Virus record (IMG/VR): IMGVR_UViG_3300022074_000158
Location: 1 to 35,942 of that record
Length of the DNA stretch: 35,942 nucleotides
Direction: 5' to 3' (one strand)
DNA from: a virus
The first letter of the stretch is position 1, and the number at the start of each line of letters is the position of its first letter. Below the pieces are notes generated by a model. That model was not told the DNA's origin. It ran no database searches and saw nothing but the letters and a program-made list of their open reading frames with translations. This document shows positions 1-9,600 of the stretch, one piece after another. Position numbers and translations under genes: made by a program.

Positions 1-1
1 A

Positions 2-487
2 CATCAATTTCAACCACCCTCTACTGACTTTTTAAAAAAATTAGGTTACAGATTTTCTAGAACTTTATTAAACCATGATAATATGCAATCAGAAAATTAT
101 TTATGGAGAGCAGTAGTTGTTAATGCTTTAGAGGATACTATGATAATAAGAGATGATAGAAAGTCTGCTACCTTAAAAACTAATGCTCATTTATGGATAA
201 TTAATAATTGTAAAGATTTTGATAGGGTCTGTGGTTGGGCTATGTTAGATTCCGAACAAGTATCTAATGCTTATAAAAAAGCAGTAGATAGTAAACAAAT
301 TATTTTTAGTAATAGACATTTATACTGGCTAAAATACAATTTTTTATTTAAAAAATTTAAAAGTAATATTGATTCTAGAATGAAGAGAAATATAAAAAAA
401 GAGATGAGAGATGTTAAAAGAGCTGCTTTATATGAAGAGGTGAGCTATGACGTCAACGTACACAACTCACCTGCACTAACGGATTGA
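2..487 (+). CDS. Conserved phage protein of unknown function, 5' end cut by the window
   Basis: The reading frame is open from base 2 and ends with TGA at 485-487. The ATG at 83 has no Shine-Dalgarno sequence, so the true start probably lies outside the window. The visible part has a WRAVVVNALED segment followed by DFDRVCGWAMLD. This pairing (Trp-Ala-Val near the start, then DF..VC..A.LD) recurs in a family of small phage and prophage proteins of unknown function. The C-terminal half is Lys/Arg-rich and predicted helical. It lies upstream of the terminase genes. I am confident that it is a gene and that it is partial. The function is unknown. Confidence 0.75.
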   Translation, partial: HQFQPPSTDFLKKLGYRFSRTLLNHDNMQSENYLWRAVVVNALEDTMIIRDDRKSATLKTNAHLWIINNCKDFDRVCGWAMLDSEQVSNAYKKAVDSKQIIFSNRHLYWLKYNFLFKKFKSNIDSRMKRNIKKEMRDVKRAALYEEVSYDVNVHNSPALTD

Positions 488-500
488 GAATTATAAGTGA

Positions 501-529
501 TTTACAAAACTCAATACAATAAATATGAT
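501..529 (+). promoter_or_regulatory. Putative sigma70-type promoter
   Basis: TTTACA at 501-506 and TATGAT at 524-529 are separated by 17 bases, each one base from consensus. The site lies in the gap after the partial gene ending at 487 and 19 bases before a small ORF with a good ribosome binding site. AT-rich DNA yields such matches by chance, but spacing and placement are right. Confidence 0.5.
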
Positions 530-547
530 AATTTATAGGAGAAGTCA

Positions 548-664
548 ATGAATATTAAACAAAAAATAAAATTTTCTATGTTACTACTATATAGTTATAT
601 ACAAACTTTTTTTAAAAACATAATTGTAAAATCAGCAAAAGTTTTGGGAAAATGGGAAAAATAG
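548..664 (+). CDS. Small hypothetical protein, 38 residues
   Basis: This short ORF begins with ATG at 548, preceded at 536-543 by TAGGAGAA, a good Shine-Dalgarno match, and ends with TAG. The product is basic: a Lys-rich start, a hydrophobic stretch (MLLLYSYIQTFF, about residues 11-22), then a Lys-rich tail. That layout could be a single membrane-inserting helix, but I recognise no family. Its last codons run into the first copy of the AAGTTTTGGGAAAAT direct repeat. Promoter, ribosome site and ORF line up, which is the case for calling it. The alternative is a leader peptide or a chance ORF. Confidence 0.45.
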   Translation: MNIKQKIKFSMLLLYSYIQTFFKNIIVKSAKVLGKWEK

Positions 665-735
665 CAGAAAACATAGTATTACAGAGAAAAAGTTTTAGGA
701 AAGTTTTGGGAAAATTCCTAAAGTTTTGGGAAAAT
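639..735 (+). repeat. Direct repeats AAGTTTTGGGAAAAT upstream of the small terminase
   Basis: Three identical 15-base copies lie at 639-653, 701-715 and 721-735, with a degenerate copy near 690-702 (AAGTTTTAGGAAA). An inverted repeat overlaps them: TTTAGGAA at 694-701 and TTCCTAAA at 715-722, with a 13-base loop. No T-run follows, so this does not look like a terminator. The block ends about 55 bases before the small terminase start. Iteron-like copies here would suit binding sites for TerS (a pac-type site) or an operator. Both roles are inference. Confidence 0.7.
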
Positions 736-791
736 AGAGGACCGAACTCTTGCATTTTTTTAAAAAATAAATTTATTCTATAGAGATATAT

Positions 792-1331
792 ATGCCACAA
801 CGAAGTAAACAGATTAGAACAATTGAAGACTTAACAACAAAACAAAAAAAGTTTATCGATACATTAGTTAGTCAATGGGGACAAATAACAAAAACCGATG
901 CTTTAATAAAAGCAGGATACAAATGTAAAAACAAAGATGCTGCAATGGTGTTAGCCAGTAAGTTAACTAATCCAAATTTAAACCCACATGTTTGTAGATA
1001 CCTAGAACATAAATTAGGAACAGAGAAAGATAAGTATGAAAAAGATAAACTAAGAAGATATAAAACTTTTGAAAGATTACGTGATGGTGCAGAAGCTAAA
1101 GGACAATTTACTGGAGCTATAAATGCAGAGTTTAGATCAGGACAATTAGCAGGACAATTTGTGGAAAAAAAAGAAGTTTTACATAGCACTCTTGAGGGTA
1201 TGAATAGAGAACAATTAGAAAAAAGACTACAAGAATTAGAAAATAAGATAAATGATGGGGGTACAATCATAGATGTTACACCAGAAAAAAAGCAAATCAA
1301 AAAGGTTAAGCGAAAAAAAAATTTGGAATAA
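792..1331 (+). CDS. terS: Terminase small subunit
   Basis: A 179-residue protein with the layout of small terminase subunits. It has an N-terminal helix-turn-helix-like region (LTTKQKKFIDTL, then KTDALIKAGYK and AAMVLASKLT, residues about 14-60) expected to bind the packaging site. A central helical part follows (KTFERLRDGAEAKGQFTGAI, about residues 93-112), as in marine-phage TerS proteins, and then LEGMNREQLEKRLQELENKI, a short coiled coil. Its role is to recognise viral DNA and load the large subunit. The start at 792 follows weak AGAG sequence, so initiation may be weak. Its 3' end overlaps the next gene by 59 bases. The large subunit lies 3.7 kb downstream, with unrelated small genes between them. 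Confidence 0.85.
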   Translation: MPQRSKQIRTIEDLTTKQKKFIDTLVSQWGQITKTDALIKAGYKCKNKDAAMVLASKLTNPNLNPHVCRYLEHKLGTEKDKYEKDKLRRYKTFERLRDGAEAKGQFTGAINAEFRSGQLAGQFVEKKEVLHSTLEGMNREQLEKRLQELENKINDGGTIIDVTPEKKQIKKVKRKKNLE

Positions 1332-1671
1332 ACTTAACCTTTTTCAAAAAGAACATAAAGAGGCATATTTCTGTAAGATAGAAAGCCCTACAATGAACGG
1401 AATACCTGATGTTCATTGTGTTTTTAAAGGTTATATTTTTTGGTTAGAATTAAAAGCTAATCCAGGTAAGAATTATGGAGTTTCAAAATATCAAATTGTA
1501 TGGCATTTAAAATATAGGAGAGCAGGTGGTAATGTATTTATCTTGAATCAACCCTTCGTGGACCGAGCACCGAAACTTCTGGCTGTCGAAGAACCGGGGG
1601 TCGTGCTTCCCGTTCCACATAATTTCATTCCCGTTCCCGTTTTAGATATAATTACTTGGATGGCCAGATGA
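1273..1671 (+). CDS. VRR-NUC-type PD-(D/E)XK nuclease with a repeat-derived C-terminal tail
   Basis: A 132-residue protein. MNGIPDVHCVF (G43-I-P-D46), then WLELKA (E59, K61) and SKYQ (K72, Q74), give the G.PD...E.K...Q arrangement of VRR-NUC / Holliday-junction-resolvase-like nucleases, and the length suits the family. In phages such enzymes may resolve branched DNA before packaging. ATG 1273 is the only upstream start in frame and overlaps terS by 59 bases. From about residue 95 the sequence no longer looks like the family. It is encoded by GC-rich island DNA, and CCCGTT units are read as Val-Pro (PVPHN, IPVPV), so the last 35 or so residues look like an extension acquired with the repeat. 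Confidence 0.75.
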   Translation: MLHQKKSKSKRLSEKKIWNKLNLFQKEHKEAYFCKIESPTMNGIPDVHCVFKGYIFWLELKANPGKNYGVSKYQIVWHLKYRRAGGNVFILNQPFVDRAPKLLAVEEPGVVLPVPHNFIPVPVLDIITWMAR

Positions 1672-1876
1672 TCCTGGAGGCTGGCTGCCATGAGCCAGCT
1701 CCTGATGCCGTTCCCGTTCCCGTTCAAAGCCTACAAAACTGGGGTTTTTTTACAAGACAGGAAATCCGGCCCTGCGCCGCAGCGGGAAAACGCCTCTCAA
1801 AAAGTCCCAGTTTTCTGCGGGTTCCGTGTCACATCTGGCTGGCTGCATGGATCCAGGTCAGGGCAGCATGCGCTGC
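1607..1876 (+). repeat. GC-rich island A with CCCGTT hexamer arrays and palindromes
   Basis: This island contrasts with its AT-rich surroundings. Hexamer units occur at 1607-1616, 1628-1643 (two units) and 1707-1725 (three units). Palindromes include a GGAGGCTGGCT / AGCCAGCTCC hairpin at 1676-1702 with one bulged base, CTGCG-C-CGCAG at 1772-1782, and GCAGC-ATGC-GCTGC at 1863-1876. The core CGCAGCGGGAAAA near 1778-1790 resembles cores in the other islands. The ORFs inside it lack ribosome sites and read the hexamers as Val-Pro, so I do not call them genes. Confidence 0.75.
1735..1814 (+). other. Long inverted repeat forming a 16-bp stem, possible structured RNA
   Basis: The arm at 1735-1750 (AAAACTGGGGTTTTTT) pairs with the arm at 1799-1814 (AAAAAGTCCCAGTTTT) over 16 positions: 14 Watson-Crick pairs and two adjacent G-U pairs. 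The 48-base loop contains a second hairpin, CTGCG-C-CGCAG. No T-run follows the 3' arm. It lies 70 bases upstream of a promoter. It may be a folded transcript, a DNA cruciform or a protein site. The sequence does not decide which. Confidence 0.5.
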
Positions 1877-1886
1877 AAAAAAATTC

Positions 1887-1933
1887 TTGACAGCAGGTGG
1901 TGCCTGTGTAAAATAATCCAATAACTAACGGAG
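1887..1933 (+). promoter_or_regulatory. Sigma70-type promoter plus ACTAACGGAG start-associated sequence
   Basis: TTGACA at 1887-1892 is a perfect -35. TAAAAT at 1909-1914 follows after 16 bases. The leader is short and ends in AACTAACGGAG at 1923-1933, whose GGAG is the ribosome binding site, six bases before the ATG at 1940. The same ACTAACGGAG occurs in front of three further small genes in this region. Confidence 0.75.
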
Positions 1934-1939
1934 AAAATT

Positions 1940-2224
1940 ATGAAAATAACTTTAAACAAAAAAAATTTTATTGAGCAGGTGAGGCAGCATTATCGCTGGA
2001 AGCAGTTTAGCTACGAGGCTTGGGAGCAAATCTTCGAATGGGAAGATGAGATGGGCTCCGATGTCGAATATGATCCAGTAGCGTTTTGTTGCACATATGC
2101 CGAGTACGAATCATTCGAAAAGCTGAAGAATGATTATAATAATATAGAAACGTTTGACGATTTAGAGGGCAAGACGTGGGTGGCTAATTTACCCAAGGGT
2201 CGTGTGCTCATTAGGCAATTTTAA
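1940..2224 (+). CDS. Small conserved phage protein (FSYEA..IFEW..D...DPVAFCC type)
   Basis: A 94-residue acidic protein. The core QFSYEAWEQIFEWED, then VEYDPVAFCCTYAEYES, matches a widespread small phage protein type with the pattern FSYE.L..LF...E......D.IA.CC.Y.E. Its function is not known to me. The two adjacent Cys at about residues 50-51 and the acidic flanks are the constant part. It is expressed from its own promoter with a strong GGAG site, standing alone between two GC-rich islands like a moron. Its base composition is less AT-rich than that of the head genes. The gene is certain. Possible roles include host takeover or inhibition, but nothing in the sequence shows this. Confidence 0.8.
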   Translation: MKITLNKKNFIEQVRQHYRWKQFSYEAWEQIFEWEDEMGSDVEYDPVAFCCTYAEYESFEKLKNDYNNIETFDDLEGKTWVANLPKGRVLIRQF

Positions 2225-2267
2225 TGATTGGCTTTTTGTGTGCTCTTTTTTTATCTTTCTTAGTGTT

Positions 2268-2425
2268 CCCACAATTAACAAGAGTCGTGTTACTTGTGGG
2301 ACTGTGTCTTCTGATTGGTTTAATATTTTAATGCCCGTTCCCGTTCCCGTTTGTTTCATCCCACACATGCGGGTGTGTAAAGGAGCTGGCGTCGCAGCCG
2401 CCGGAGCGGGAAATCAGGATTTGTT
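2268..2425 (+). repeat. GC-rich island B: hairpin, CCCGTT array and CAGCCGCC core
   Basis: A near-perfect hairpin stands at 2268-2300: CCCACAATTAACA, a 7-base loop, then TGTTACTTGTGGG, giving 12 pairs with one mismatch. It lacks a following T-run. Three CCCGTT units follow at 2334-2351, and a core CAGCCGCCGGAGCGGGAAAT at 2395-2414. The CGGGAA of the core is complementary to the TTCCCG of the array about 60 bases upstream. No coding sequence is credible here. Confidence 0.7.
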
Positions 2426-2446
2426 TTAAACAAGATAAAAAAATTT

Positions 2447-2494
2447 TTGACAAACCATTACATATGTAATATAATTATCGGATAACTAACGGAG
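2447..2494 (+). promoter_or_regulatory. Consensus sigma70 promoter plus ACTAACGGAG sequence
   Basis: TTGACA at 2447-2452 and TATAAT at 2470-2475 with a 17-base spacer are an exact match to the bacterial consensus. The leader carries AACTAACGGAG at 2484-2494, six bases before the ATG at 2501. This is the strongest promoter in the window and drives a two-gene unit of 64- and 54-residue proteins. Confidence 0.85.
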
Positions 2495-2500
2495 AAAAAA

Positions 2501-2695
2501 ATGAATGACTTAACAAAATTAATGCTAATGGATCCGCATTTCATACAAGCTATGAAGGACCTTGAAGACAGAGGTTTTATTAAAGTAAAAGGAAATGAGG
2601 GTATTGAAATCGTGGACAAGGAAGGACTCCAAAAATATTACGACAACTTTGGAATAGCTCCTGACCATTTTCCAAAGGTAGATGAAGATGAATAG
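2501..2695 (+). CDS. Hypothetical acidic protein, 64 residues
   Basis: A small acidic protein starting at the ATG six bases after a GGAG site. Sequence features are a short helical start (MNDLTKLMLMDPHFIQAMKDLEDRG), a possible beta hairpin, and an Asp/Glu-rich end (KVDEDE). I recognise no family. It is the first gene of a two-gene unit behind a perfect consensus promoter, and its end overlaps the next start by 8 bases, so the two are probably translated together. Strong independent expression and small size suit an early-acting or accessory protein, which is inference. Confidence 0.7.
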   Translation: MNDLTKLMLMDPHFIQAMKDLEDRGFIKVKGNEGIEIVDKEGLQKYYDNFGIAPDHFPKVDEDE

Positions 2696-2852
2696 CTATT
2701 ATGTAATTCATGTCAATTATGGTAAGAAAACTATTGAAGCTAGTACGACCTACGAGGCGTGTAAAAAATATGCTGACCACTTTGGTCTACGAAGTACCAG
2801 GGGCATAGATGCCTATCTAATGACACAAGCAGTAGATCCTGCAATTTTATAA
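2688..2852 (+). CDS. Small conserved phage protein, 54 residues (YVIHV..KTIEA.TTYEACK type)
   Basis: An ORF from ATG 2688 to TAA 2852, overlapping the upstream gene by 8 bases. The product reads as a beta strand (YYVIHVNYGKKTIEA), a helix (TTYEACKKYADHFGL) and RGIDAYLM. The pattern of aromatic-V.F, KT.EA.T.Y.ACK.A...F.L.S..GI.AYL recurs in tiny phage proteins I have seen in marine phages. Its role is unknown. Translational coupling to the preceding 64-residue protein suggests joint function. Codon pattern and family resemblance support it despite its size. Confidence 0.7.
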   Translation: MNSYYVIHVNYGKKTIEASTTYEACKKYADHFGLRSTRGIDAYLMTQAVDPAIL

Positions 2853-2860
2853 ATTTAATT

Positions 2861-3023
2861 CCCGTTCCCGTTCCCGTTTTGGGTTCGGGTTCGGGTTTTA
2901 ACTTTTAGGATCTGGCTGCGCTGGCCAGGGACGCATGGGAAACTTGTTCCCGTTCCCGTTTCGAAGCACCAGTTAGTTTACTTTTTTTGGTAGTTGTTTT
3001 CCAGCCCGGCGGCACGGGAAATG
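2861..3023 (+). repeat. GC-rich island C: two CCCGTT arrays, GGGTTC array and two cores
   Basis: Three CCCGTT units at 2861-2878 are followed at once by three GGGTTC units at 2881-2895. These can pair as CCCG/CGGG blocks separated by TT-TT mismatches. A GGGAA-acttg-TTCCC hairpin lies at 2937-2951, and a second two-unit array at 2949-2960. Cores at 2921-2943 (CTGGCCAGGGACGCATGGGA) and 3002-3023 (CAGCCCGGCGGCACGGGAAA) resemble those of the other islands. It looks like two copies of the island element side by side. Confidence 0.7.
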
Positions 3024-3075
3024 CAAAAGTTCATTAACTTGCGGTTTGGTCGCAGAACTTGGTAAAAAATAGTGT

Positions 3076-3127
3076 TTGCATTTTATCGGCGAATCCGATA
3101 CAATATAATTTTAACTAACTAACGGAG
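3076..3127 (+). promoter_or_regulatory. Putative sigma70 promoter plus ACTAACGGAG sequence
   Basis: TTGCAT at 3076-3081 and TACAAT at 3099-3104 are separated by 17 bases. A TATAAT overlaps at 3104-3109 without a matching -35. The leader contains ACTAACTAACGGAG at 3114-3127, so the conserved ACTAACGGAG sits at 3118-3127, with seven bases before the ATG at 3135. Confidence 0.6.
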
Positions 3128-3134
3128 ATAAAAA

Positions 3135-3731
3135 ATGGGATTTGATTTGTACGGACTTAATCCAAATTTTAAAAATAAAAAACCTTCCATTGATTGGGAC
3201 AAGAAACCAACAAAGGAAGAACAAGAAAAATTTTTTGCTGACTATAATAAATGGGAGAAAGAAAATCCAGGACATTATTTTAGAAATAATGTTTGGTGGT
3301 GGCGACCATTAGCAGACTTTGTTTTGTGGTTAGCTGATGAAGAGTTTTCAGAAGAAGAAAGAAAAAGATGGCACGACAACGGAGGCTTTAAAGTTAGTGA
3401 AAAAAAAGCTAACCTAATTGCTGACTTGTTAGAAATGGCTATTGAAAAAGGAATGGCAAATAAAGTGGAAGAAGAGAATAAAAGAAAAATGGCTATTGCT
3501 AGAGAACATAATAAAAAGGTTGAAGAGAAACACAAAGAATTAAAAAAAATAGTTGAAGAAAAAACTAATAAAAAAAATCTAGCTCCAGCAGAATTTCCAG
3601 AACCTTTTAAAAGCCAATGGGACGATATACAGAAAATGACAAACTACGATTCGCATTACCCTTTTAGTGTGGACAATGTAAAAGAGTTTATTATTTTTTG
3701 CAGAGCAAGTGGAGGTTTTGAAATTTGCTAG
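3135..3731 (+). CDS. Conserved MGFDLYG protein of unknown function, 198 residues
   Basis: The start MGFDLYGLNP and the later YFRNNVWWWRPLADFV are hallmarks of a conserved protein type found in phages and bacteria with no assigned activity. After the aromatic FRNNVWWWRPL block (about residues 48-60) comes a helical part with SEKKANLIADLLEMAIEKG, then a Lys/Glu-rich coiled coil (about 105-150) and a C-terminal segment including FIIFCRASGGFEIC. Members typically pair these two N-terminal motifs with a helix similar to VS...A..IA..L. The gene has its own promoter, the shared ACTAACGGAG leader and a terminator-like hairpin after its stop, so it is a self-contained transcription unit. Confidence 0.8.
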   Translation: MGFDLYGLNPNFKNKKPSIDWDKKPTKEEQEKFFADYNKWEKENPGHYFRNNVWWWRPLADFVLWLADEEFSEEERKRWHDNGGFKVSEKKANLIADLLEMAIEKGMANKVEEENKRKMAIAREHNKKVEEKHKELKKIVEEKTNKKNLAPAEFPEPFKSQWDDIQKMTNYDSHYPFSVDNVKEFIIFCRASGGFEIC

Positions 3732-3750
3732 AGATTCCATTTCTCTTTTT

Positions 3751-3795
3751 AGAGTGTGTGCTATATCTAGCACTCACTCTATTTATTTTATATTT
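3751..3795 (+). terminator. Hairpin terminator candidate after the MGFDLYG gene
   Basis: AGAGTGTGTGCT at 3751-3762 pairs with AGCACTCACTCT at 3769-3780 over 12 positions with one mismatch, around a 6-base loop (ATATCT). A T-rich stretch (ATTTATTTTATATTTT) follows. The T-run is interrupted by A, so termination may be partial. Confidence 0.6.
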
Positions 3796-3805
3796 TACAC
3801 ATTAG

Positions 3806-3961
3806 TTCCCGTTCCCGTTCCCGTTTCTGTCACAGTAATACTTTACGCTGTTGGTTTAGCAGCCGCCAGGATCGCACGGGAGGGAAACTCCCGTTTGGCA
3901 TTCCCGTTCCCGTTCTCGAAGGTGCTTGGGTAGGTGCATGCTGGCTTCAAAACTCCAGCCA
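3806..3961 (+). repeat. GC-rich island D, in a 357-base stretch without a gene
   Basis: Three CCCGTT units at 3808-3825 and two more at 3903-3914. A core CAGCCGCCAGGATCGCACGG starts at 3860. A perfect ACGGGAG-GGAAA-CTCCCGT hairpin lies at 3876-3894, and CTGGCT-10 bases-AGCCAG at 3940-3961. The rest of 3732-4088 holds the upstream terminator and the downstream promoter. The ORF across 3709-3933 has no ribosome site and mostly reads the hexamers as Val-Pro, so I do not call it. Confidence 0.7.
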
Positions 3962-4020
3962 GAAAAAAACTAACAAAATTTTTTGTTTCAAAAAAAAATG
4001 CAATTAATTAAAAATAATAC

Positions 4021-4082
4021 TTGATTATCTGTTATTTACTGATATATTAGTATATAAGTTTAATCATCAAACACTAACGGAG
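4021..4082 (+). promoter_or_regulatory. Putative extended -10 promoter plus ACTAACGGAG sequence
   Basis: TTGATT at 4021-4026 and TATATT at 4043-4048 are separated by 16 bases, with TG at 4040-4041 forming an extended -10 (TGnTATATT). The leader ends in ACTAACGGAG at 4073-4082, extended by GT, seven bases before the ATG at 4089. It serves the three-gene unit 4089-4927. Confidence 0.65.
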
Positions 4083-4088
4083 GTAAAT

Positions 4089-4424
4089 ATGAAAAAACTT
4101 AAATTAAAAAGTGAGCAACTAACAAAAGAAGAAATAATGATGAATTTTGTTATTGCTGATTCCAACTATAAGAAGTTTAAAAAAGAAAGAAATAAACTTC
4201 TACCATTTGTAAAAGAGATATTAGAAGATACAGACAACAACACTTTTACATTTAAACTTCTACCACATATAAAAGGTTTCATTCAAAAGGTTTCAGTATT
4301 TGCTGAAAGATTTGATACTACTACTTTTAGAAAAGAAAATCCTGCAATTTCAGAACAGTATATGGTAGAAAGAGAATCAACAACAATCATAACTGATAAT
4401 GCTAAAATCGAGGTGCAAAAATGA
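4089..4424 (+). CDS. Hypothetical protein, 111 residues
   Basis: A Lys-rich N-terminal region (MKKLKLKSEQLTKEEIMMNF) is followed by helical sequence and a C-terminal part with AERFDTTTFRKENPAISEQY and a short beta-like tail. The pattern FD...F...NP.. resembles the end of small phage proteins that bind or accompany DNA enzymes, but I do not recognise the family with confidence. It is the first gene of a three-gene unit and its stop overlaps the next start (ATGA). Its GGAGGT site is the strongest of the four ACTAACGGAG leaders. Confidence 0.65.
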   Translation: MKKLKLKSEQLTKEEIMMNFVIADSNYKKFKKERNKLLPFVKEILEDTDNNTFTFKLLPHIKGFIQKVSVFAERFDTTTFRKENPAISEQYMVERESTTIITDNAKIEVQK

Positions 4425-4666
4425 GTGTACTAGATTTAATAAACAATTCTAATTTAGTTACTCAATCAAGAGTAACTGAATTAGCAAACGCAATTACAGA
4501 TGAACAGAGAAAACAAATCAATTACCAATTAATCTGTTCTGCATTAGAAAAGGCGATTGTTGAGATTTATGCTCAATATCCTAATTCTGAAGTAACGAAT
4601 GATTTAAGAAATAAAGTAAATAATTATTTAGCAGAACTACAGATTGTATTACAAGGGAGGAATTAA
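4421..4666 (+). CDS. Hypothetical helical protein, 81 residues
   Basis: A small protein predicted to be all helix (for example VTELANAITDEQRKQINYQL and DLRNKVNNYLAELQIVLQ), acidic to neutral, without Cys or signal sequence. No family is recognised. It overlaps the gene before by 4 bases and abuts the gene after, so it belongs to one co-translated unit with them. Helical proteins of this size in phage operons are often partners of a neighbouring protein, which here would be the 111- or 86-residue product. That is inference. Confidence 0.65.
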   Translation: MSVLDLINNSNLVTQSRVTELANAITDEQRKQINYQLICSALEKAIVEIYAQYPNSEVTNDLRNKVNNYLAELQIVLQGRN

Positions 4667-4927
4667 ATGTATACAAAGGAAGATTTAAAAAGAGATGTTG
4701 AAGAACTAAAGAAAGCAAAAGACGAGTTAGTAAATAAAATAGACGACTACAAAAAAGATTTAGAAATTTATTTATTAGCAATTAAAGTTAAAAAGGTACA
4801 ACAGCATTATAATTATTTAATAAAATCTAAAGCTCAAAAATGGGCTTTAGATTATTGGCAAGGAGTGTACCAAAAGTTAAGAGCTAGACAGGTTAGCTAT
4901 AACCTTAAAAACAAGGCTCAAAGTTAA
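4667..4927 (+). CDS. Hypothetical coiled-coil protein, 86 residues
   Basis: The ATG follows the previous stop directly, with GGGAGG at 4654-4660 inside the upstream gene as ribosome site. The product is Lys-rich. Residues 1-45 form a likely coiled coil (KRDVEELKKAKDELVNKIDD), and the rest is helical with aromatic residues (WALDYWQGVYQKLRA). No family is recognised. It is the last gene before the large terminase and is followed by a degenerate GC-rich island. Confidence 0.65.
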   Translation: MYTKEDLKRDVEELKKAKDELVNKIDDYKKDLEIYLLAIKVKKVQQHYNYLIKSKAQKWALDYWQGVYQKLRARQVSYNLKNKAQS

Positions 4928-4942
4928 TTAGATTGCCGTTAT

Positions 4943-5051
4943 GTGCCGTTCTCGTTCCCGTTTGGTTACGGGTACGGCACTTGCAAGAGCAAGGCTTGGG
5001 CCAAGATAAATACACGCACAACTTTGCAAAACGTCTTGGATCGTGTATAAG
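4943..5051 (+). promoter_or_regulatory. Degenerate island E and putative promoter for the large terminase
   Basis: Nested inverted repeats stand at 4943-4980: GTGCCGT outer with ACGGCAC, CCCGT inner with ACGGG. The palindrome CTTGG-G-CCAAG follows at 4995-5005. CCCGTT is reduced to one good unit beside two altered ones. TTGCAA at 5024-5029 and TATAAG at 5046-5051 with a 16-base spacer could be a promoter. It would place the start of transcription at or near the terL ATG at 5058, where no ribosome site is visible, so the message could be leaderless. Confidence 0.4.
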
Positions 5052-5057
5052 TAAGTT

Positions 5058-6533
5058 ATGAAAGCAGATTTACTTACCACAGATAAACTGAGGCTCGAAG
5101 TAGAAAAGAAATGGATTCAGCACGTAAGACTGTGCCAAGATAACTTTTTATATTTTGTTAAAGAGGTCTGGCCTGATTTTATATATCGTAAAACAAGAGA
5201 CCCTAAGAAACTTGGACATCATCAAATCATAGCAAATGAATTTACAAAGATAGCTTCTGAAAGAAAAGGGAGGCTCATTATAAACATGCCCCCTAGACAT
5301 ACAAAATCAGAATTCGCTTCTGTGTATTATCCTGCTTGGATAATTGGTAAGTATCCAAAATTAAAAATTATGCAAGTATCACACAATACAGAACTTGCAG
5401 TAAGGTTCGGCTCTAAGGTTCGTAACATTATTGACTCACCAGAATATAAACAAATTTTTGGAGATGTGAAACTTCGTGAGGACTCCAAAGCAAAAGGACG
5501 ATGGGAAACTAATCAAGGTGGAGAATATTATGCAGCAGGTGTTGGAGCGTCTATCACGGGTCGTGGTGCAGATTTACTGATCATTGATGATCCACACACG
5601 GAACAAGATTCAATGTCTGATATTGCTATGGAACGTGCGTATGATTGGTACACATCAGGACCCAGACAAAGATTGCAACCTGGAGGCTCGATACTTTTAG
5701 TAATGACACGATGGGCAGAGGATGACTTGACTGGTAGATTACTCAAGGCTCAAACAGAGCCGAAAGCCGATTCCTGGCGCCAGATAAGTTTTCCTGCTAT
5801 TTTGAACTCTGGCAACCCAGTATGGCCTGAGTATTGGGCTCTAGATGAATTAGAAAAAATAAAAGCATCTGTACCGATTCGTAATTGGTCTGCACAATAT
5901 ATGCAAGAACCAACTTCAGAAGAAGGTGCGATTATAAAACGTGAATGGTGGCAACCTTGGGATGGACATGGTGTACCTAATTTGGTGCATGTTATACAAA
6001 GTTATGATACAGCGTTTAGTAAAAAAGAAACTGCTGACTATTCTGCGATAACAACGTGGGGTATTTTTTATCCAGAAGAAGGAGGAGCACCACAAGTTAT
6101 TTTGTTAGATGCTTTCCGTGGCAAGTTTGATTTTCCAGAACTCAAAGTAGTTGCATTACAACATTACAAGTATTGGGAACCTGAAAGTATTATTATAGAA
6201 CAAAAAGCAAGTGGTGAACCTTTAACACAAGAGTTTAGAAGAATGGGTATACCTGTTGTACCATTTGTACCTAGTAAGGGTAATGATAAATTTACTAGAG
6301 TAAATGCTGTAGCTCCCTTGTTTGAAAGTGGTGCTGTGTGGTTTCCATATGGAGAAAAATTTGCAGAAGACGTGATAGATGAGTGTGCTGCTTTTCCTCA
6401 TGGTGCAAACGATGACTATGTGGACAGTATGACACAGGCTATGTTAAGATATAGACAAGGCAGTTTTGTAGAACTATACTCAGATTATCTAGACAATGAA
6501 GATAGACCTCCAAAACAATATAAATATTATTGA
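5058..6533 (+). CDS. terL: Terminase large subunit, ATPase-nuclease
   Basis: The motor that pumps DNA into the prohead and cuts the concatemer. The 491 residues hold an N-terminal ATPase with the Walker A variant MPPRHTKS (77-84), Walker B LLIIDD (173-178) and a coupling motif LLVMTRW (213-219). The C-terminal RNaseH-like nuclease carries acidic residues at D317 (QSYDTAF), E381 (IIIEQKASG) and D452/D453/D456 (NDDYVDS). This resembles the psiM2-ORF9-like TerL group with its PP.H.KS loop. Length is normal and all active-site residues are present. No Shine-Dalgarno sequence precedes the ATG. The partner terS is 3.7 kb upstream, and the portal and its neighbours lie downstream. Confidence 0.95.
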   Translation: MKADLLTTDKLRLEVEKKWIQHVRLCQDNFLYFVKEVWPDFIYRKTRDPKKLGHHQIIANEFTKIASERKGRLIINMPPRHTKSEFASVYYPAWIIGKYPKLKIMQVSHNTELAVRFGSKVRNIIDSPEYKQIFGDVKLREDSKAKGRWETNQGGEYYAAGVGASITGRGADLLIIDDPHTEQDSMSDIAMERAYDWYTSGPRQRLQPGGSILLVMTRWAEDDLTGRLLKAQTEPKADSWRQISFPAILNSGNPVWPEYWALDELEKIKASVPIRNWSAQYMQEPTSEEGAIIKREWWQPWDGHGVPNLVHVIQSYDTAFSKKETADYSAITTWGIFYPEEGGAPQVILLDAFRGKFDFPELKVVALQHYKYWEPESIIIEQKASGEPLTQEFRRMGIPVVPFVPSKGNDKFTRVNAVAPLFESGAVWFPYGEKFAEDVIDECAAFPHGANDDYVDSMTQAMLRYRQGSFVELYSDYLDNEDRPPKQYKYY

Positions 6534-6540
6534 GGATAAT

Positions 6541-6654
6541 ATGATACAAAAAATCAAAAACATATTTAATAAAATTAAAAAAAGATTATTCGGTAAATTA
6601 TGTGAGTGTCTTCCTAAAAAGAAAAAAGGAAGAGGCAGACCTAAAAAGAGTTGA
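6541..6654 (+). CDS. AT-hook-like basic peptide, 37 residues
   Basis: A short ORF seven bases after terL, with GAGGA at 6532-6536 as ribosome site. The product is amphipathic and basic at the start (MIQKIKNIFNKIKKRLFGKL), has two Cys (CECLP), and ends KKKKGRGRPKKS. GRGRPKK is the core of an AT-hook, a motif that binds the minor groove of AT-rich DNA. I have seen similar tiny proteins near terminase genes in marine phages. It may help condense or handle packaged DNA, but this is inference. It overlaps the following TTG start by 4 bases. Confidence 0.65.
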   Translation: MIQKIKNIFNKIKKRLFGKLCECLPKKKKGRGRPKKS

Positions 6655-9600
6655 GTGTGGCTGAAGAAGATTCAGGTATGGGTTTTGGCACAGCTGCCTT
6701 AATAGGAGGTGGTATTGGTGCATTGGTGTTTCGTAGAAACATCGGTAAATTTGCCAAAGATTATTTCGATGACTACAAACGAGTCACGGATCCTGATGCT
6801 TTGTTAAAACAAAAAAAGAAAGCTGAAGCAGATGCAGACTTTCAAGAAGAGTATGTAAATAAATTTGGTGTTGACCCTGACGAAAGGGGCACCAATATTA
6901 TGACACAAAATAGAGACCTTGTTCCACAAGATAAAGTTGATGAGCTTGTGAACCCTGCACCTATGACACCAGGACAAGTAGCTCAACAAGAAGCAAAAAA
7001 TTTTATACAAAGAGATCAACAGATTTTAGCAGACATAAAAAGAGAAGTACAAAAGCCAGGTCAGTCGTTTACATTAGGAGGTCAATCATTTAACAATGAT
7101 TTGTATGGAGTTGGTTCTGTTTTGTATGATGCTGTTGCAAGAAAAGTACAAACTGCTAAACCTATGCCTGTATCTTTTTGGACAAAATTTTTTAAAGATA
7201 AGATACAAGTTGAGTTTACACCTTTTAACAGAAAAGTAGAAACAGTATCTAAAGATGAGATTGCTGATACAAATATTGCTAAGTTCGATAAGAAAGGTAA
7301 TTTAGTTGATGGTTACTTAAAGTATGTATCAGATATGAATATTAATAATAAGTTAGAAGATGAGATACGCATATCTCCTCTGACCATTTTAAATTTAATA
7401 AAAAAAGCTCCTGCAAATAATTTAAGAGTTATAGAATATGATTCAAGGTTTTATGCTGAAGATGCAACAGGTATGAATAATTTTGGTAAAGCCATAGTTG
7501 AGGCTCTTGAAAAAAGAGAGCCTACACTTAAAAAAACAAATCCTAATTTTGGTGATTATGCTAATGCTACTGCAACAGCTAATTCAGTATTAGGAAGCAC
7601 AAGAGTAACTTCTTTACTTAATTTGAAAAAGAAATTAGGACTTAGTACAGGAACTCTCGATACATTAAGAGGTCAAGGTTATAAAATGTCAACTGGCGCT
7701 GACTTGTTTAATAACCCTGGAGTTGGTGTAAGAGATTTAGCTTTTACTTTAAAAAAATTTAAAAAAGACGTAAACAATAATTTATTTAGTCCTGAAGGTG
7801 GAGTAGGACCAGATTTAACAACAAGCGAAAACTTTAAAGCGTTTTTTGATTTACCAGTATCATCTCTTAATTACAAAGGTAAATATAAATTAGATCCTAA
7901 TATGACAATAGGAGAGGCTATAGAAAAATATAACAAAGACTCTGTTAAGTTTAGAGATACTTTAAAAGAGATAGGAAAAACTAGCGGTGTAAATGAGGAA
8001 ACCTTAGCGATAAGAAAAGCTATTTTTGATATGACAAAATCTTATAAAGAGGTATCAAAATTAAAAAATAAATTACCTTTTACTATGTATCCAGATTATA
8101 TTCCTTATCGTTTGTACGGACCAGAAGATTATTTTGAGGCAGTCATTCATGTAGATCCTGCAACAATAAAAGGTGTAAAAAACTATGCTCCAAACTTTCA
8201 AGCAGCTCAAGGACAAGGTCATTATCATAATGATATTTTTGGTCAGCCTATTCAGGGACAAATATTACACTTGAGGGGTGGTATAAGAAAACTAGATAGT
8301 AATGCTAAAAAAGGTATTGGAGATAATGAAACTATTCTTACAGTAGATGAGATACAAGCAGACATAAATCAAAAAGTTCAGCAAGAAATAAAAAGAGAAA
8401 AAAGTAAAATGGCTAAAGATAGATTATATGCTGAACTTGATGCTTTAAGAAATGAAGAAGCTGTGCAAAGAGATTTTACAAAGTTTAAAGACGAGGGTGG
8501 TTTACAAAGATTTCAAACAGAAGAGAGAAGAAGACAAAGAAATAGAAATGCTGGTTTTGACGAAGTATTAACAGACATAGATAATATGAGTGAAGATGCA
8601 AAATTCTTAGCTTATAAAAAATTTAATTTAAGAAATTTAACTGACAAAGAATTTGGAGATTTGACATCCACAGAGTCAAGACTTTTTGGCAAACAGTTTT
8701 TATTTGATGATGATAAAGAACAAGCCATAAGAAAAAATATGTTTAACCTAGGTGATTTAAATTCTGATATGTATAAAGATAGATTACTTACTATAGCAGA
8801 TCAGATGCAAGAACTTACAGCTAAAGGTTCTGCTATGACTAGAGCTGATTTAGATAATTTAAAAAAATTAGAAATAAAATATGAGGACATTAGAGAACTA
8901 ATACCATCTGTAGATAGAAGAGATGCTAGTAAATATACCTATATGCCTTTTTATAAGAAAGAACAATGGGGTCCACTTGGTTTAAAGTATGCGATTAAGA
9001 AAGCAGCAAAAGATGGAGTAGATTGGGTGGGTGTAAATCCTTATGAGTTAGTGCATCATAGAGAGGGTCAAGTATTAGGTAATTTAGAATTTTATGGAAA
9101 CTACAGAGGAGGAGGAGACATATCTAAAAGAGTTAAAGGTTCTTTGTTACCTCGTCAAGTAGAGTATTTAGATAAGTTAGCAGAAAAAAAAGGGTTTAAA
9201 GATGCAGGAGGAGAATTTAAAAATAGTCCTGGTTATTATAAACTTTTAGCAGAAGCAGCAGAAAGACCAGTAAGAGCAAGAAAAGCTTTATCAGGTGAAT
9301 TAAATACTAGATCCGTTATAACTGAAAGAAGTGATCAAAGAAAAAAAGCCTCAGCTGAAGGAGCTACCCTACCAAACTTTTTAAAAAAATTTGCAGCTGA
9401 TTATGGCACCGAAGTTAAAACAGTTAGAGCTGCTAAATCAGATCCAGATAAACCTATCAAAATAATAAAACCAATAAAAGCAATTGACCCTGATACAGGA
9501 AAAGAGTTTAAGTATGATCAACATGTTGCTGCATTTACTAAAGATGAATATGATTCATTAATAGCAGAGTACGGATCTAAAGATAATGTTTTAAGTAAAC

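Follow-up and report, generated by a model that had tools for sequence, protein, structure and literature searches.

The 35,942-nucleotide viral stretch analysed here (IMG/VR record IMGVR_UViG_3300022074_000158, hereafter the window) raises the question of why a family of GC-rich islands, built on tandem copies of the hexamer CCCGTT, should occupy the region between its two terminase genes. The most economical reading of the sequence, to which we give a probability of roughly one half, is that these islands are transcription-punctuation cassettes, in which a gene end would be followed by a C-run terminator-insulator and then by a new promoter. In its large terminase subunit (TerL), the window shares 74% identity with Pelagibacter phage HTVC023P and 63% with HTVC027P, and the former value identifies it as an HTVC023P-type pelagiphage. 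Pelagiphages infect SAR11 bacteria. Two contigs from other samples (L110 and L114) encode proteins from the inter-terminase zone that are 99-100% identical to those of the window, so this phage has been recovered more than once. A TerL search of bacterial genomes, which reached no SAR11 genome, returned only two short contigs (L195 and L196) of this phage type in a single metagenome-assembled genome labelled Maricaulis, which are probably binning contamination.

The island zone is bounded by a gene resembling that of the small terminase subunit (TerS) at positions 792-1331 and by the TerL gene at 5058-6533; its GC content rises to 0.40-0.47 in 500-base intervals, against ~0.26-0.30 in the first kilobase. 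When up to two mismatches were allowed, the dodecamer CCCGTTCCCGTT matched 16 times in the window, where 0.57 matches were expected and the maximum in 100 shuffles was five; 14 of the 16 fall in 1630-4962 on the + strand, the strand of the zone's genes, tracts, hairpins and promoter-like sites described below. All ten exact matches are also on this strand, within 1630-3914, with none elsewhere in the window. Thus, the location between the terminase genes, the single orientation, the confinement to 3.4 kb and the contrast in base composition noted in a preliminary description of this DNA are all borne out, and the tracts that it listed are real, except that there is only one hexamer at 1607. 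The islands come after the small genes of the zone. Island 1 has two tracts, the first (1607-1641) with its single hexamer at 1607 and two copies at 1630-1641, the second (1707-1724, found by the mismatch search) reading GCCGTT CCCGTT CCCGTT. The tract of island 2 (2334-2351) has three copies; then follow tracts of three copies at 2861-2878 and two at 2949, the three-copy tract of island 4 (3808-3825, also from the mismatch search), two copies at 3903 and, before TerL, the degenerate tract at 4945-4962, about 17 nt past the stop codon of the open reading frame (ORF) at 4667-4927. The tracts at 1607-1641 fall within the coding sequence of ORF 1273-1671, at its 3' end. The common core proposed for the islands proved to be a loose family (GCAGCCGCC..GGATCGCACGGGAGGGAAA, CAGCCGCCGGAGCGGGAAA, CAGCCCGGCGGCACGGGAAA, TCCGGCCCTGCGCCGCAGCGGGAAAA): cores exist, with no single motif among them.

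In 86 of 125 distinct cases, no more than 12 nt separate an island's first array from the preceding stop codon, and the same holds for 15 of 125 random positions; stop codons were counted as the ends of open frames of at least 24 codons. The spacing peaks at 2-3 nt (TAG-TT-CCCG), and in the window the stops of two conserved hydrophobic ORFs, 2224-2331 and 3725-3805, lie exactly 2 nt before the arrays at 2334 and 3808. A conserved coding repeat, one of the findings that would have overturned the preliminary description, is ruled out: depending on the lineage, ORF 1273-1671 is interrupted near its end by hexamers or by heptamers that break the frame, and elsewhere the arrays lie just past stop codons.

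Relatives were searched for the islands, as the preliminary description had suggested, and many carry them, with the hexamer as one of several interchangeable units. Seven relatives of 31-57 kb have four to nine exact matches each, all inside the zone, and one further relative has a single match in the same zone. The sampled contigs include near-duplicates, and all counts refer to contigs or distinct sequences, not to independent origins. A comparison at identical gene borders found arrays in about 20 contigs with TerL 85-91% identical, located after the nuclease-like gene (1273-1671 in the window) and after genes A (1940-2224), B (2501-2695) and C (3135-3731), and always pointing along the direction of the genes. 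Many other contigs with this level of TerL identity do not have the exact hexamer. Several of them have alternative C-run units at the same place (CCCGTTT, CCCGT, CCCGCCGT, CCCGTCT), and CCCATT and CCCACTT accompany the hexamer in other contigs. The hexamer itself is not the conserved feature, and the units are interchangeable among lineages. In a census of the surroundings of gene C, 49 of 79 contigs had CCC-type arrays; around this gene 160 arrays were of the CCC and four of the GGG orientation (three of the latter being the 3' partner GGGTTCGGGTT), and only two C-type arrays were found in 115 kb further downstream. The layout is kept in more distant phages with TerL 62-63% identical. Searches with island 1 DNA against named phages gave no relevant match, and few relatives turned up in single-protein searches that started from gene C or the nuclease-like gene.

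Three further observations concern zones of this kind in relatives. The counterpart of the nuclease gene in HTVC027P (L194, 4925-5070) carries tandem GCTTGNN heptamers at its 3' end, convergent with the gene C homologue; this is a parallel array built on an unrelated unit. In 023Pt_psg01 (L193, 5880-8100) the corresponding zone contains G-rich blocks (GGGGGGCGGGTGGGCCC) as well as GCGA/GCAA tetramers in tandem. TTATATATAA-like motifs lie 6-26 nt downstream of CCCGT/CCCGCCGT arrays in L169 and, ~1.0-2.8 kb upstream of TerL, in L150.

Part of the evidence for transcription punctuation comes from what the arrays pair with. Of 128 first arrays, 20 provide the 5' arm for a strict intrinsic terminator, where 1.1 were expected with the downstream sequence shuffled; the same scan found no terminator whatsoever on the reverse strand. 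An example is CCCGTTCCCGT-tttttt-ACGGGAACGGG-TTTTTTTT in L119. The pairing CCCGTTCCCGT/ACGGGAACGGG is found unaltered in L119 and L168, and the 3' arm matches an altered unit in L145 (CCCGTCCCG/CGGGACGGG) and L269 (CCCGCTTCCCGC/GCGGGAAACGGG). Duplexes between tract and downstream sequence have z-scores below -2 relative to shuffles in 23% of cases, versus 2% with the tract reversed, and T is enriched 20-31 nt downstream of the tract; beyond this T richness no positional consensus, such as a fixed spacing to a -10-like motif 3' of the tract, was found. In the window, at 2855-2905, tract 2861-2878 and GGGTTCGGGTTCGGG form a predicted hairpin of three blocks separated by UU/UU internal loops and followed by TTTTAACTTTT (-24.5 kcal/mol, z -4.9, 0 of 200 shuffles). 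The tract at 2334 is predicted to form a 10-bp helix with 2404-2413 in the core AGCCGCCGGAGCGGGAAAT (2396-2414; z -1.4), and a fold of 3803-3895 pairs tract 3808 with the core ACGGGAGGGAAACTCCCG, which together with tract 3903 spans 3873-3914 (z -2.3). Both inspection and folding give a hairpin TGGGAA-ACTTG-TTCCCG at 2936-2960 that includes tract 2949. The inverted-repeat region of island 1 (1739-1816, core TCCGGCCCTGCGCCGCAGCGGGAAAA) pairs AAACTGGGG with CCCAGTTTT when 1700-1840 is folded, with a z-score of only -0.15. The suggestion that the islands are transcript folding elements is thus supported for a subset of them. Rfam gave no match above the gathering score in the window.

The second part of the proposed cassette is a promoter. 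The two best sigma-70-like sites of window positions 1-9000 lie directly after islands 2 and 1: TTGACA-17-TATAAT (12/12, 2447-2475), followed by an operator-like TTATCGGATAA at 2475-2485 and the leader CTAACGGAG at 2486, and TTGACA-16-TAAAAT (11/12, 1887-1914), with CTAACGGAG at 1925 and then gene A behind it. The sites ahead of the next two genes are weaker, namely TTTGCA-18-TACAAT (3075-3104) before gene C, with CTAACGGAG at 3119, and TTGATT-16-TATATT with a TG (4021-4048) before gene D, with CTAACGGAG at 4074; the leader is common to genes A-D. The operator-like sequence is a copy of the palindrome TTATCSGATAA, which is found in or beside zone promoters in the window and in relatives. In the array-bearing relatives searched, with one mismatch allowed, there are four to six such sites per genome versus zero to two for the reversed control; some copies lie outside the zone, in some relatives several kilobases upstream of terS. 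This distribution suggests a single phage regulator.

Under the punctuation reading, a tandem C-run array would begin right past the stop codon of each small gene. An intact array would provide the 5' arm for the hairpin of an intrinsic terminator (CCCGTTCCCGT...ACGGGAACGGG-T8) or, alternatively, would find its partner 40-70 nt downstream in a G-rich core (CGGGAAA). Each gene would be insulated by one to three such units from the downstream host-type promoter that drives the next one, and with every gene insulated and provided with its own promoter, the zone would be a string of separately transcribed cassettes. Slippage would alter the repeat unit, and each lineage would consequently have its own. 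The placement and orientation of the arrays, the turnover of their unit, the terminators in a subset and the promoter-like sequences that follow are read directly from the sequence; we infer that termination is the function of the arrays, that it may extend to arrays for which a partner is missing and that tandem copies may act as redundant pairing registers.

Several results weigh against this reading. At none of the window's islands does the strict scan detect a terminator, although 2855-2905 folds strongly before TTTTAACTTTT. Strict terminators are formed by only ~16% of first arrays and by one of 113 later arrays, the z-scores of the later arrays are near zero, and a unit-swap test was mixed, the partner match being supported for CCCGTT and not for the other (few) units. 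Where ORF 1273-1671 ends, the array belongs to the coding sequence and no terminator accompanies it. Gene C already has a terminator-like 13-bp hairpin with a T-rich tail at its 3' end (3751-3797), upstream of tract 3808, and this hairpin covaries (95.9% of cells paired, five pairs changed on both sides, covariation 0.317 versus 0.141 when shuffled); since it precedes the tract, the array there may not be transcribed. This objection carries the most weight, together with the fact that the majority of arrays have no recognisable partner, yet remain perfect.

The lack of significant structure in later arrays and the rapid change of units between lineages are what one would see if GC-rich spacers simply gathered tandem repeats by slippage, without any function. 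We consider this improbable: the borders, orientation and stop spacing persist among phages in which gene C is only 40-45% identical, and arrays are nearly absent elsewhere in the genomes. The perfection of arrays that have no close partner (in the window, those at 2334 and 3808) would also be accounted for if a phage or host protein bound the CCCR units, as DNA or as RNA past the stop codon, with the unit drifting along with the protein. The sharp placement after stop codons and the tendency of arrays within one genome to share a unit (CCCGT/CCCGCCGT in L150, CCCGTTT in L181) agree with such recognition in trans. On the other hand, unit length ranges from five to eight within one genome, the sequence varies widely and no candidate binder was identified, and we regard this explanation, too, as improbable. 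A broader proposal is that CCC-type arrays 2-3 nt past the stop codon constitute a new class of gene-end signal, read by a trans factor of the host or the phage at the RNA or DNA level, with hairpins as one mode of action; drift in the specificity of that factor would make the arrays of one genome change their unit together. We advance this only tentatively and consider it rather unlikely.

Gene content between the islands varies from phage to phage, with 51 singletons among 182 ORFs. Members of family F9 stand upstream of gene C in some phages and downstream of it in others, and identity between the window and the relative L040 is mosaic (95% for gene B, 60% for C and 95% for D). Together with the duplication of units within islands, these patterns would suit recombination linkers, that is, GC-rich repeated junctions at which the genes from TerS to TerL could be exchanged as cassettes, with termination secondary. 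Such a role is conceivable, and we think it unlikely: the islands themselves diverge fast (identity of 0.55-0.86 between the window and L040), which makes them a poor substrate for homologous recombination, and linkers need neither a strand bias nor a spacing of 2-3 nt from the stop. The related idea of a dispersed mobile repeat finds partial support, in that islands contain duplicated units, these units reappear at other gene borders and cassettes are swapped, but neither target duplication nor a mobilising enzyme was seen. No such enzyme was noticed in the zone, with no search aimed at one, and the exact tract is confined to the zone in the relatives searched. One core, GGATCGCACGGGNNGGGA, was considered as a wider mobile element and rejected; it gave 14 matches, of which the AT-rich ones are these phages and the other seven contigs, with a GC content of 0.51-0.73, are unrelated.

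The position between the terminase genes and the tandem direct repeats could also point to a TerS-binding pac or cos array, or to an iteron-type replication origin. This is very improbable. The arrays are missing from relatives with 62-66% identical TerS and 85-87% identical TerL, they are scattered among all the gene borders of a 3.4-kb stretch and follow stop codons, and a different repeat adjoins terS: TAGGAAA / TTTTGGGAAAA boxes are conserved immediately upstream of this gene in the majority of the lineages inspected, whether or not these have arrays. The preliminary proposal of TerS or pac recognition arrays is therefore not sustained. Direct repeats AAAGTTTTGGGAAAAT / TAGGAAAA, partly palindromic (AGGAATTATTCCTA), lie just upstream of terS in the window (638-735), in L192 (3440-3545) and in other relatives, including phages that have no CCCGTT arrays. 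Repeats in this position appear to be a better packaging-site candidate than the CCCGTT arrays.

As for the genes of the zone, the TerS-like product matches Terminase_2 weakly (E 0.002) and PHROG 641/51 (E 3e-5), and TerL matches PHROG 38 (E 2e-118). ORF 1273-1671, a candidate nuclease of the VRR-NUC type, matches PHROG 2165/93/5702, annotated as helicase, endonuclease and Holliday junction resolvase. Gene A (94 aa) belongs to PHROG 9974, of unknown function; gene B (64 aa) has a weak Crp-type helix-turn-helix (HTH_Crp_2, E 1e-4, under the gathering score) and is followed by a 56-aa ORF (2682-2852) that ends 8 nt upstream of tract 2861; gene C (198 aa), the family marker on which the census was based, has no Pfam family. 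The hydrophobic ORFs 2224-2331 (35 aa) and 3725-3805 (26 aa) are two unannotated short proteins with counterparts of similar length in relatives. The latter overlaps the covarying hairpin, so that this segment seems to be coding and structured at once.

We found no earlier description of these arrays, the dodecamer CCCGTTCCCGTT was not found in the literature searched, and in those papers on HTVC023P-type phages that were covered, keyword searches turned up no mention of promoters, terminators or repeats between genes. By sequence, a subset of the arrays is identical in kind to canonical intrinsic (Rho-independent) terminators; they differ in that their arms are tandem, lineage-specific and kept even where no 3' arm remains. 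The promoter early stem-loops (PeSLs) of T4-type phages, as outlined in PMC4503421 (citing Arbiol 2010 and Comeau 2014), combine a terminator stem-loop with a promoter in intergenic, gene-shuffling zones. Going by that outline, the stems in relatives, the putative promoters that follow window islands 1 and 2 and the shuffled gene content resemble PeSLs. However, the stem arm here is a tandem array with lineage-specific units and several units per border, and the promoters are sigma-70-like (host-type) instead of T4 early ones, in an HTVC023P-type and not a T4-type phage. The start-associated sequences (SAS/ESAS) of cluster K mycobacteriophages, which mark gene starts with a fixed 13/17-bp consensus (PMC3203893), are likewise intergenic repeats associated with small genes and accompanied by a conserved leader close to the starts (here ACTAACGGAG), whereas the arrays mark gene ends and do so without a fixed consensus.

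Tandem heptamers in Xanthomonas and Nostoc (GGGAATC / GGGGA(C/T)T) are strongly biased to positions just past or overlapping stop codons; their inverted copies can form stem-loops, and their function is unknown (PMC4692102). They share with the arrays tandem GGG/CCC repeats, spacers of 3-4 nt and proximity to the stop codon. They differ in occurring chromosome-wide on either strand with a preference for four units (G-quadruplex), while the pelagiphage arrays have mostly two or three units, the C-rich strand as the coding strand, a single zone in the phage and turnover of units. A G-quadruplex repeat, defined as four or more G3 runs on the same strand joined by short loops, is disfavoured here: at least four C runs occur in only 22% of 258 arrays, and window arrays have two or three.

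The stop-proximal placement thus ties these phage repeats to the unexplained Xanthomonas and Nostoc heptamers. These phages have a variable gene zone, and its cassettes seem to be bounded by the array elements. If the islands are indeed terminator-promoter units, they would show how these phages add accessory genes and express them singly, and would provide a sequence handle for recognising cassette borders in metagenomes.

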